From Spartobacteria bacterium (GTDB taxonomy: Bacteria; Verrucomicrobiota; Verrucomicrobiia; Chthoniobacterales; UBA6821), in NCBI GenBank assembly GCA_947471565.1, contig CANIVT010000004.1, positions 1-64,000 of the forward strand: a stretch of DNA of 64,000 bases, written 5' to 3'. A model generated the notes under the pieces. The model was not told the origin of the DNA, ran no database searches, and saw nothing but the letters and a program-made list of their open reading frames with translations. Shown here piece after piece: positions 38,272 through 60,173 of the stretch (position 1 is the first letter of the stretch; every line of letters begins with the position of its first letter). Position numbers and translations under genes: made by a program.

Positions 38272-39090
38272 ATGAAGACCAAAGTCATCGCCATCGCCAA
38301 CCAGAAGGGGGGCGTCGGCAAGACCACCACCTCGGTGAACCTCGCCGCCGCCATCGCCGAGGCCGGCCATCCCGTCCTGCTCCTCGATCTCGACCCGCAG
38401 GGGAACGCCTCAAGCGCCCTCGGTCTGGAGGTCGGGCAGGGGAGTAGCCTCTACGCCGCGATGGTCGGGGAGACCCCGATGGATGATCTCATCCAGGAGA
38501 CCCGCATCGCGAACCTCTGCGGCATCCCTGCCGATCTTGATCTGGCAGGTGCCGAGATCGAGGTGGCACGCATGGAAGGCCACCTGGGCCAGCTCCGCAG
38601 CGTGCTCGAGCCGGTCCGCAACTCCGGCCGCTTCGAATTCATCATCATGGACTGCCCTCCCTCTCTCGGCATCCTGATGACCAATGCCCTCACAGCCGCC
38701 GACGAACTCCTCATCCCGATCCAGTGCGAGTACTACGCGCTCGAGGGACTCGGCAAACTTGTCGGCGTCATGGAGCAGATCCGCGAATCGGGGGCCAATC
38801 CGACGCTCGCCATGAGCGGACTGCTCATGACGATGCTCGACGTCCGCACCAACATCAGCGCCGCCGTCGTGCGCGATGTCCGCGCCCACTTCGAGGAGGT
38901 GGTCTTCGAGACATCGATCCCGCGCTCCGTCCGCATCAGCGAGGCCCCGAGCTTCGGCAAGACGATCCTCGAATACGACCCGAAGGGCCCGGGCGCGACC
39001 GCCTACCGCGTGCTCGCAAAGGAATTCCTCGCGCGCCAGAAGAAAGGCCTCTCCTTCATCGGCGCCCCGCAGAAAAACGGGGAAAGTTAA
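38272..39090 (+). CDS. parA: ParA/Soj-family partition ATPase
   Basis: 272 residues from the ATG at 38272. Deviant Walker A NQKGGVGKTTTSVNLA, Walker A' DLDPQGNAS, Walker B FIIMDCPPSLG and C-terminal SFGKTILEYDPKGPGA place it with chromosomal ParA/Soj. It drives segregation of ParB-parS complexes. Unusually, parB does not follow; the next gene is pyrE after a repeat. The TAA stop lies in that repeat. ParB-site-like palindromes occur about 20 kb away at mnmG. Confidence 0.95.
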   Translation: MKTKVIAIANQKGGVGKTTTSVNLAAAIAEAGHPVLLLDLDPQGNASSALGLEVGQGSSLYAAMVGETPMDDLIQETRIANLCGIPADLDLAGAEIEVARMEGHLGQLRSVLEPVRNSGRFEFIIMDCPPSLGILMTNALTAADELLIPIQCEYYALEGLGKLVGVMEQIRESGANPTLAMSGLLMTMLDVRTNISAAVVRDVRAHFEEVVFETSIPRSVRISEAPSFGKTILEYDPKGPGATAYRVLAKEFLARQKKGLSFIGAPQKNGES

Positions 39091-50132: not shown

Positions 50133-53120
<2,988 letters not shown>

Positions 53121-58259: not shown

Positions 58260-60152
58260 TTAGTCCGGAGTTCCTGCCGTGGCCGTGACATCCGGCGATC
58301 CAATCCTCTTCATCCAGACGGAGAGCACGGAAAGATCGGCTGGAGTGATCCCGCTGATCCGCGAGGCCTGACCCAGTGTCTCGGGAGCGTAGTCACGGAG
58401 TTTCTGCCGGGCCTCCAGGCGGAGGCTCGGAATGGCCGCATAGTCCAGACCGCGAGGGATTCGTTCCTCCTCCTGCCGGCGCTGCCGCTCGATCTGCTCC
58501 TCCTCACGGCGGAGATATCCCTCGTACTTGAGGTCGGTTTCCACCAGCGACCATAAGGCGGCAGGGTAGCGATCTCGGAGATCGCCGGGCAGTTTGTCGG
58601 CCGTATTCTCCGTCCGCTTGAGCCACTGGATTATGGGAATTCCATCCTGTTGATGCTGAGTGATTTCCTTGGAAAGCTCGGCAAGGGATGCCTTTTTGGC
58701 AAGGAAGGCGGATTTCCGATATTCACAAGCTGTTCCTAGATTTAACGCCTTGTCCGTCAACCTGATATCGCAATTATCTTGGCGAAGACGTAGCCGATAT
58801 TCCGCCCGGCTGGTGAACATGCGGTAAGGCTCCGGAGTTCCTCTCGTCACCAGATCATCCAGCAGGACGCCTATGTATGCCTCGTCGCGTCGGAGGATCA
58901 GGGGCTGTTTACCCTGCACCTTCAGAGCAGCATTGATCCCAGCCATCAGTCCTTGGGCGGCTGCCTCCTCGTAGCCGGAGGTTCCGTTGATCTGTCCCGC
59001 GAAGTAGAGACCCTCGATCTTTTTAGTCTCCATGGTGGCATGGAGTTGATGAGGGGGGCAGTAGTCGTATTCCACCGCGTAGCCAGGACGCAGGATCTCC
59101 GCTTTCTCCAACGCAGGGATGGAACGGATGAAGGCGTACTGCACCTCGTAGGGAAGACTGGTAGAAACCCCGTTGACGTAGATCTCTCCGGTGTGGCGGC
59201 CTTCAGGCTCCAGAAAGATCTGGTGGCGCGTCTTGTCGGCAAACTTCACCACCTTGTCCTCGATGGATGGGCAATAGCGCGGACCCACCCCGTCGATGAC
59301 TCCGGTGTAGAGGGGAGATTGGTGGAGATTGGAGCGGATGATCTCGTGGGTTTCCTCGGTCGTGTAAGTGATCCAGCAAGGGATTTGTTCCACATGGAAC
59401 ATTCCATCACGATGATGGTTGAGGGTGTGGAGGTTGTCCCTGCTTTTGGAAATTGATTCAGGGATATGGGAGAAGAGTGGGGCTGGGGTATCTCCGTCCT
59501 GTCGCTCACAGCGGCTGAAATCGATTGACTTGGCTAGGAGACGGCAAGGGGTTCCAGTCTTGAACCTCCCCACCTCGAAACCAAGCTCCTTAAGATTGTC
59601 GCTCAGCGTGGAGATGGAGTCTCCCATTCTTCCTCCCGTTTGGGTTTTCAATCCGACATGGAGGAGCCCTCTCATGAATGTGCCGGTGGTCACAATGACG
59701 CTACCAGCAAAGAAACGAAGCCCCAGATTAGTCTCTGCCCCCGTGACGCGATCACCTTCCACCGTGAGGGTGGTGATATTGGCCTGCATGACCGTGAGAT
59801 TGGGAAGATCTTCTAGGAGAGCCTTGATCCGGAATTGGTAAGCCTTCTTATCGCACTGGGCTCTGGGTGCACGAACGCTAGGACCTTTGGAAGCATTGAG
59901 CATCCGGAATTGAATCCCTGTCGCATCGGTATTCAATCCCATCACCCCCCCCAAGGCATCGATTTCGCGAACGAGATGCCCTTTGGCCAGACCTCCAATA
60001 GCCGGGTTACAAGACATCTGTCCTATCGTATCGGCATTCTGTGTCAGCAGGAGAGTCCGTGCCCCAAGACGGGCGGCGGCATGAGCAGCCTCGATCCCGG
60101 CATGGCCGGCACCAATCACCAAGACATCAAATTGATCAGGATAGGAAAACAT
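58260..60152 (-). CDS. mnmG: tRNA uridine-5-carboxymethylaminomethyl modification enzyme MnmG (GidA)
   Basis: FAD enzyme that, with MnmE, builds the cmnm5 group at wobble uridine 34. 630 residues: VIGAGHAGIEAAHAAARLG, GQMSCNPAIGGLAKGHLVRE, the IEGLYFAGQINGTSGYEEAAAQ FAD-domain motif and a C-terminal helical MnmE-binding part. A local insertion (about residues 232-256, including SRDNLHTLNHHRDGMFHVEQ) precedes IPCWITYT. Part of it is encoded by a ParB-site-like 16-bp palindrome. The start ATG at 60152 is preceded closely by a second copy. Confidence 0.96.
   Translation of the reverse strand: MFSYPDQFDVLVIGAGHAGIEAAHAAARLGARTLLLTQNADTIGQMSCNPAIGGLAKGHLVREIDALGGVMGLNTDATGIQFRMLNASKGPSVRAPRAQCDKKAYQFRIKALLEDLPNLTVMQANITTLTVEGDRVTGAETNLGLRFFAGSVIVTTGTFMRGLLHVGLKTQTGGRMGDSISTLSDNLKELGFEVGRFKTGTPCRLLAKSIDFSRCERQDGDTPAPLFSHIPESISKSRDNLHTLNHHRDGMFHVEQIPCWITYTTEETHEIIRSNLHQSPLYTGVIDGVGPRYCPSIEDKVVKFADKTRHQIFLEPEGRHTGEIYVNGVSTSLPYEVQYAFIRSIPALEKAEILRPGYAVEYDYCPPHQLHATMETKKIEGLYFAGQINGTSGYEEAAAQGLMAGINAALKVQGKQPLILRRDEAYIGVLLDDLVTRGTPEPYRMFTSRAEYRLRLRQDNCDIRLTDKALNLGTACEYRKSAFLAKKASLAELSKEITQHQQDGIPIIQWLKRTENTADKLPGDLRDRYPAALWSLVETDLKYEGYLRREEEQIERQRRQEEERIPRGLDYAAIPSLRLEARQKLRDYAPETLGQASRISGITPADLSVLSVWMKRIGSPDVTATAGTPD
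59386..59401. promoter_or_regulatory. ParB-binding-site-like palindrome inside mnmG
   Basis: TGTTCCACATGGAACA, one base from the perfect dyad TGTTCCACGTGGAACA and close to the consensus of chromosomal parS sites (TGTTTCACGTGAAACA type). On the coding strand it encodes the residues MFHVEQ in a local insertion of MnmG. It is the exact reverse complement of the site at 60158-60173. Confidence 0.55.
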
Positions 60153-60157
60153 GGTCT

Positions 60158-60173
60158 TGTTCCATGTGGAACA
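60158..60173. promoter_or_regulatory. ParB-binding-site-like palindrome at the mnmG start
   Basis: TGTTCCATGTGGAACA, reverse complement of the internal mnmG site, 5 bases upstream of the start codon, where a ribosome binding site would normally be. A damaged half-site, TGTTTTGTGGAACA, lies further out at 60295-60308. Confidence 0.55.

Follow-up and report, generated by a model that had tools for sequence, protein, structure and literature searches.

Inverted palindromes at mnmG of a Spartobacteria bacterium as probable chromosomal parS sites, one of them within the coding sequence

Introduction

Palindromic DNA that lies in reading frames and is read as peptide is familiar from the Rickettsia palindromic elements, which are dispersed repeats.

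The parS sites of bacterial chromosomes can also lie within genes. The accessible part of the work on P. aeruginosa gives TGTTCCACGTGGAACA as the sequence of both parS2 and parS3, and places nine of the ten parS most likely inside coding sequences, with four near oriC (PMC4368675). In C. glutamicum (Corynebacterium glutamicum), parS1 is described, again in the accessible part of the source, as lying inside trpCF, the other nine of ten being intergenic (PMC7083940). For twelve gut species, including Akkermansia muciniphila, parS has been located and Hi-C done, and mnmG goes unmentioned in what is available of that report (PMC10197239). Our search of the open-licence literature, which left most subscription papers outside, brought up no paper describing a parS within mnmG for the Verrucomicrobiota.

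Here we analyse two inverted 16-mers at mnmG in a 64-kb stretch of DNA (the window) from a Spartobacteria bacterium of the phylum Verrucomicrobiota. An earlier note, made from the letters of the window alone, had taken these to resemble chromosomal parS sites and had suggested that a partition site may have shaped the MnmG protein.

Results

The gene that hosts the internal site is mnmG (gidA; 58260–60152, minus strand), whose 630-aa product scores 790.6 bits against TIGR00136, the equivalog model of the tRNA uridine-5-carboxymethylaminomethyl(34) synthesis enzyme, above the cut-off of 524.85. The internal site, TGTTCCACATGGAACA, occupies 59386–59401 and reads on the mnmG strand as xTG TTC CAT GTG GAA CAx, that is, codons 251–256, encoding MFHVEQ. 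Its exact reverse complement lies at 60158–60173, 5 bases 5' of the mnmG ATG (60152). A single base separates each 16-mer from the perfect dyad TGTTCCACGTGGAACA, which is the sequence of P. aeruginosa parS2 and parS3. The positions, the inversion, the encoded peptide, the one-base distance from the dyad and the parS-like shape were thus all as the earlier note had described them.

The window contains only these two places within three mismatches of the 16-mer, and none of 100 shuffled windows reached an equal match count. The earlier note had held that random occurrence around the genome would refute a partition role, and no such scatter was seen: in the 2,281,332 bases of the genome assembly (46 contigs, 97.25% complete), a search allowing one mismatch returned the two window 16-mers, 772 bp apart in 2.28 Mb, and no other place. 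Allowing two mismatches added one place, on contig 6 (L003:1501-1516), which encodes MFHMEH in a different conserved gene that we take to be a U32-type peptidase. We rejected this place as a real parS, given that it is a coding motif of a conserved gene, and an RNA family search there gave no match. Its codons were TTT CAC ATG GAG CAC in five of five loci examined. MFHMEH is nearly the same peptide as that of the internal site and is not spelled as parS, making it a useful control for codon choice. The look-alike, which is present in our own genome and in genomes of family f7, would mislead consensus scans that permit two mismatches.

We then asked how the site is distributed in the order, using 97 genomes including our own. 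The word TGTTCCACRTGGAACA, with at most one mismatch, is present in 87 of these. MnmG was found in 93 of the 97, and we read each of these 93 loci. L127, a partial gene too short to reach the relevant place, was left out of the count, leaving 92 readable loci. A site at the same mnmG codons (at most three mismatches to the dyad) is found in 78 of the 92, and 71 of these 78 are spelled TTC CAY GTG GAA CAR, the other seven differing by one codon each. An upstream site within 150 bases of the mnmG start is present at 53 of the 92 loci only. Some clades carry extra in-frame mnmG sites, at offsets near 571, 1249 or 1582. Genome-wide copies (at most one mismatch) mostly number one to three, with a maximum of five, in G042.

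Fourteen order loci lack the internal site, namely the 12 genomes of family f7 together with G028 and G038. The latter two are single-contig 0.9-Mb genomes with no ParB hit, and their peptides at the site are FHVKQ and FHVRQ, with the codons TTT and AAG/AGG; judged by spelling alone, these codons look as those of a decaying site would. In G028, despite the lack of ParB, a remnant survives that differs from the looser word TGTTYCACRTGRAACA at two positions. Family f7 is a different case: ParB is present in 12 of 12 genomes and an mnmG site in none, so that this ParB-keeping lineage has its sites elsewhere than mnmG. The Q residue of the motif is retained even here. In genus g8 of this family, parS-like sites adjoin secA in five of six genomes (loci L288-L292, L299, L300). 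In the window, secA (50133–53120, minus strand) and mnmG are 5 kb apart; possibly mnmG moved out of this region in f7 and the centromere remained there.

For the phylum we drew 125 genomes evenly, of which 121 had mnmG (the four without a hit were dropped); one further locus, that of G126, was left out, so that 120 genomes were examined. A site was counted if the core with at most one mismatch, or the exact variant TTTCCACGTGGAAA, lay inside the mnmG reading frame. By this measure 75 of the 120 genomes have a parS-like site inside mnmG, and for 65 of the 75 its place is a single hypervariable loop that precedes a conserved cysteine. The ten that remain belong to genus g36 of family f15 (loci L314, L337 and L340-L347), where the site is at an mnmG offset of about 1589 and encodes MFHVEH; four more genomes of this genus (G101, G145, G162, G198) have no mnmG site although ParB is present. 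Site-less genomes otherwise comprise 39 from families f29, f34, f39, f40, f45, f51, f53 and f54, with the four of f15, G028 and G038 making up a further six. Genome-wide matches were listed for 40 of the 82 matching genomes, and among the places listed 71 of 75 are either inside mnmG or upstream of it by no more than about 0.7 kb.

The same DNA word is not always read in the same frame. The 116 sites inside mnmG divide into 89 in phase 2 (read as FHVE), 17 in phase 1 (STWN or STWK; six of these are in one gene) and 10 in phase 0 (VPRGT), and 18 of the 75 genomes have one or more sites in a phase other than 2. G174 and G127 each carry three sites in three frames within one mnmG. Within genus g99 the frame is switched at the same place, G118 having RKEAE-SSTWN..EPWIPG where G186 has RKEAE-LFHVEH..EPWIPG. 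In G177 (L433), the mnmG frame has 872 codons, and a single enlarged loop holds TTTCCACGTGGAAA six times in frame. The variant dyad of G177 may reflect a changed ParB; the ParB hit in this genome (6.3e-43) is weaker than most.

Codon choice was compared with each gene's own usage in a sample of one gene per genus (113 genera), which held 100 FHVE-type motifs. TTC was used in 100 of the 100 motifs against 52.7 expected, GAA in 100 against 46.3, and GTG in 96 against 36.2; GTA replaces GTG in the remaining 4, one base off the dyad. All three parS codons occur together in 96 of the 100 motifs, where 8.1 would be expected. VPRGT is parS-spelled in four of four cases (0.005 expected), as is STWN in four of four (0.44 expected). 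It is important to note that genera are not independent of one another, and we therefore treat these counts as descriptive only.

The species-genome collection was also scanned for F-H-V-[EK]-Q-x-P-C, whatever the codons, and this yielded at least 118 stretches. Among the matches listed, 107 are in frame in mnmG, nine are not mnmG, and two are near but outside it; the in-mnmG matches listed include Rubritalea, Roseibacillus and Luteolibacter, as well as MAGs titled Akkermansia, Prosthecobacter and Chthoniobacter. TTC, GTG and GAA are used in all 107. Relatives that kept the peptide with synonymous codons destroying the palindrome would, according to the earlier note, have spoken against its reading, and there are none among these 107 in-mnmG matches listed. 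Our conclusion from the use of three reading frames, together with a codon match beyond the genes' own usage, is that the DNA, and not the peptide, is conserved. These same two observations support the suggestion that a partition site has shaped the protein.

The internal site falls in a hypervariable MnmG loop of about residues 228–257 (59382–59471, minus strand), a stretch that holds parS in numerous members of the phylum. The earlier note had seen this stretch as an insertion relative to ordinary MnmG and had proposed examining whether insertion and site co-occur in relatives. In an alignment with E. coli MnmG, the window protein does have 17 extra residues directly before the site. However, all 12 genomes of f7 keep the loop without the site. 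Loop and site are thus separable, and nothing indicates that the insertion arose through the site. A PC cysteine stands beside the site, and we considered whether it might be the catalytic C277 of E. coli; this was rejected, given that C277 aligns with C294 of the window protein, not with C259.

An AlphaFold2 model of the window MnmG has a mean pLDDT of 90, with values of 85–92 over residues 231–260, and predicts a short strand at residues 251–253. Such fairly high confidence in the loop leaves some fold role for FHV possible in the order, and on this model the imposed residues may have been fitted into the MnmG fold there. F252–Q256 are invariant in the alignment used for the structure model (A1). 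However, A1 was built from loci found by the pattern FHV[EK]Q, and since its loci were preselected for the peptide, an invariant FHVEQ is no evidence.

Our genome encodes one ParB_N protein, on contig 17. It has three Pfam domains (ParB_N, HTH_ParB and ParB_C), scores 191.8 bits against TIGR00180, and has Spo0J/ParB as its closest solved relatives. The specificity positions of the ParB/Noc family are given, in the accessible part of the source, as R173, G201 and R204 in Caulobacter, the Noc choice being Q173 and R201 (PMC7383237). Reading the alignment by eye, we find R (of GKSR) at the R173 position and G at G201 in our ParB, so that its recognition residues at 173/201 are predicted to be of parS type, not Noc; at position 204 it has K, where the same partly available source gives R. 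The Noc model TIGR04285 gives this protein 233.2, below the cut-off of 315. A reading of the palindromes as Noc binding sites (NBS) does not fit, the ParB having R and G at the equivalents of Q173 and R201. A small pair of genes upstream of parB (L004:2173-2855) resembles, by eye, a VapBC-type toxin-antitoxin system, the second protein being PIN-like.

The window itself encodes a chromosomal-type ParA (Soj) at 38272–39090 on the plus strand, about 20 kb from the sites, with 8ray (E 6e-73) and 1wcv (E 6.3e-64) as its best PDB relatives. The earlier note had pointed out that in other bacteria mnmG often lies near parAB and the origin. In our genome parA alone is near; parB is apart from parA, on another contig and unlinked to the window sites.

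With a strong ParB defined by an E value below 1e-40, the 120 phylum genomes comprise 74 with both ParB and mnmG site, 41 with neither, four with ParB only (all f15) and one with the site only, an agreement in 115 of 120. With the order added (207 genomes), 143 have both, 41 neither, 18 ParB only and five the site only. The 18 are the 12 of f7, the four of f15 and two of f9 with decayed sites, while the five site-only genomes without a ParB hit are possibly due to assembly gaps. The agreement is dependent on the ParB cut-off chosen: two site-less f29 genomes (G123 and G185), whose weak ParB hits only narrowly pass the curated cut-off, were scored as lacking ParB. On an MnmG tree (FastTree, loop removed, the partial genes of G083 and G085 left out), a sign test found seven independent pairs that differ in ParB, in which the site followed in two and stayed the same in five, and was not significant. 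As there are just two independent co-changes, with ParB and site jointly absent in two lineages, this test cannot reach significance, and a Fisher p is not independent evidence. The agreement is consistent with parS, and is no proof of it.

The position relative to the replication origin was approached through GC skew. In G181, a single-contig genome of 4.73 Mb from which we took twenty 20-kb samples, the skew goes from -0.31 (about 1.89–1.91 Mb) to +0.24 (2.13 Mb), beside mnmG at 2.154 Mb, and mnmG is therefore origin-proximal in this genome. The opposite flip falls between 4.28 and 4.49 Mb, 0.2–0.4 Mb from parB (4.68 Mb). The skew of our own contig is weak, negative in the first 20 kb and then mostly positive, and that of G171 is noisy, with two minima in 20 sampled stretches. 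Origin proximity is thus supported in one relative only, and for the sites of our own genome it can be suggested just by analogy. In five single-contig genomes of family f17 (G181, G184, G192, G215 and G113), parB lies about 42–47% of the chromosome away from the mnmG parS, assuming circularity and with rounded sizes for three of the genomes; in G181 this puts parB 0.2–0.4 Mb from the skew terminus. It would be unusual for parB to sit near the terminus, unlinked.

Discussion

We consider it very probable, in the absence of binding data, that the two palindromes are chromosomal parS centromere sites, one of them in the codons of mnmG, and that selection acts on the DNA word. By inference from the ParABS family, ParB–CTP clamps would load at the two sites and then spread, ParB at the sites would load SMC, and ParA would move the ParB complexes so that newly copied origins separate. 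Selection would act on the DNA word, with the loop tolerating the encoded peptide in any frame, be it FHVE, VPRGT or STWN; sites could then multiply, shift and vanish within the loop, the enzyme sequence following them. The mnmG placement is probably old in Verrucomicrobiota.

One alternative is that FHVEQ is a functional MnmG motif of which the palindrome is a by-product. The invariance of F252–Q256 would suit such a motif were A1 not composed of loci chosen by this very peptide, and the predicted strand at FHV, together with a Q kept even in f7, can also be counted in its favour. What makes us sceptical is that the same DNA word is read in three frames as three peptides, and that the synonymous codons are fixed in 96 of 100 motifs where 8.1 would be expected, whereas the similar MFHMEH of another gene is written with TTT and GAG. 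Furthermore, in f7 and in the reduced genomes G028 and G038, which have lost the site, the peptide at this place varies. The retention of a DNA word through changes of peptide, frame and copy number is not easily accounted for by what the protein does alone, and we give a protein motif very little chance of being the answer.

We think it no likelier that a selfish palindromic repeat has inserted itself into the mnmG loop. The loop is hypervariable, and the number of copies in mnmG ranges from none to three, with six variant copies in G177; both facts can be counted for a repeat. Yet genome-wide copies are mostly one to three (five in G042), nearly all matches listed are at mnmG, and the common unit is just the 14–16-bp site, the bases on either side varying; no dispersed copies with a longer common unit were found in our own genome beyond the two sites. 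ParB and the site are, moreover, missing together in two lineages. An operator for some dimeric regulator of mnmG other than ParB would fit the 53 of 92 order loci with a site within 150 bases of the start. Such a regulator, however, would have to use a dyad exactly identical to a known parS, one present with chromosomal ParB and missing from families that have no strong ParB (f29, f34, f39 and others), and in f7, which keeps ParB, the sites lie away from mnmG. This possibility, too, appears to us highly improbable.

Our preferred reading, parS sites under selection as DNA, can be extended, although we hold the extension to be speculative and on balance unlikely. The mnmG loop would be the ancestral home of the centromere, loop and DNA having co-evolved across the phylum and the loop having been enlarged for up to six sites, as in G177; ParB clamps might in addition regulate transcription of mnmG, and so couple the segregation of origins to translation and the modification of the tRNA wobble base.

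If the palindromes are parS, a centromere has apparently been retained within a single enzyme gene, in all three frames, across a large part of a phylum, with a DNA function writing the sequence of a conserved enzyme. The positions of parS could then be predicted for many Verrucomicrobiota without experiments, the loop would offer a natural test of how far a protein tolerates an imposed sequence, and the effect of ParB spreading on transcription of a host gene would become testable. There is a warning here as well, in that conserved residues in protein alignments can be imposed by DNA.

Unlike the Rickettsia palindromic elements, the mnmG sites occur in small number at a single gene and correspond to a partition site. 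The parS of P. aeruginosa, as described in the accessible part of that work, share with them the same dyad and an intragenic position; the Verrucomicrobiota differ in using one gene, mostly one loop, and three frames, with a protein that tracks the site (PMC4368675). Corynebacterium glutamicum parS1 likewise lies within coding sequence, whereas no phylum-wide conserved placement is described for it in the accessible part of its source (PMC7083940). Compared with the ParB/Noc family as partially available to us, our ParB shares the R173/G201 choice and differs in its K at R204 and in a parB that lies apart from parA (PMC7383237). Intragenic parS is thus known already, while one that shapes a protein across a phylum appears to be new.
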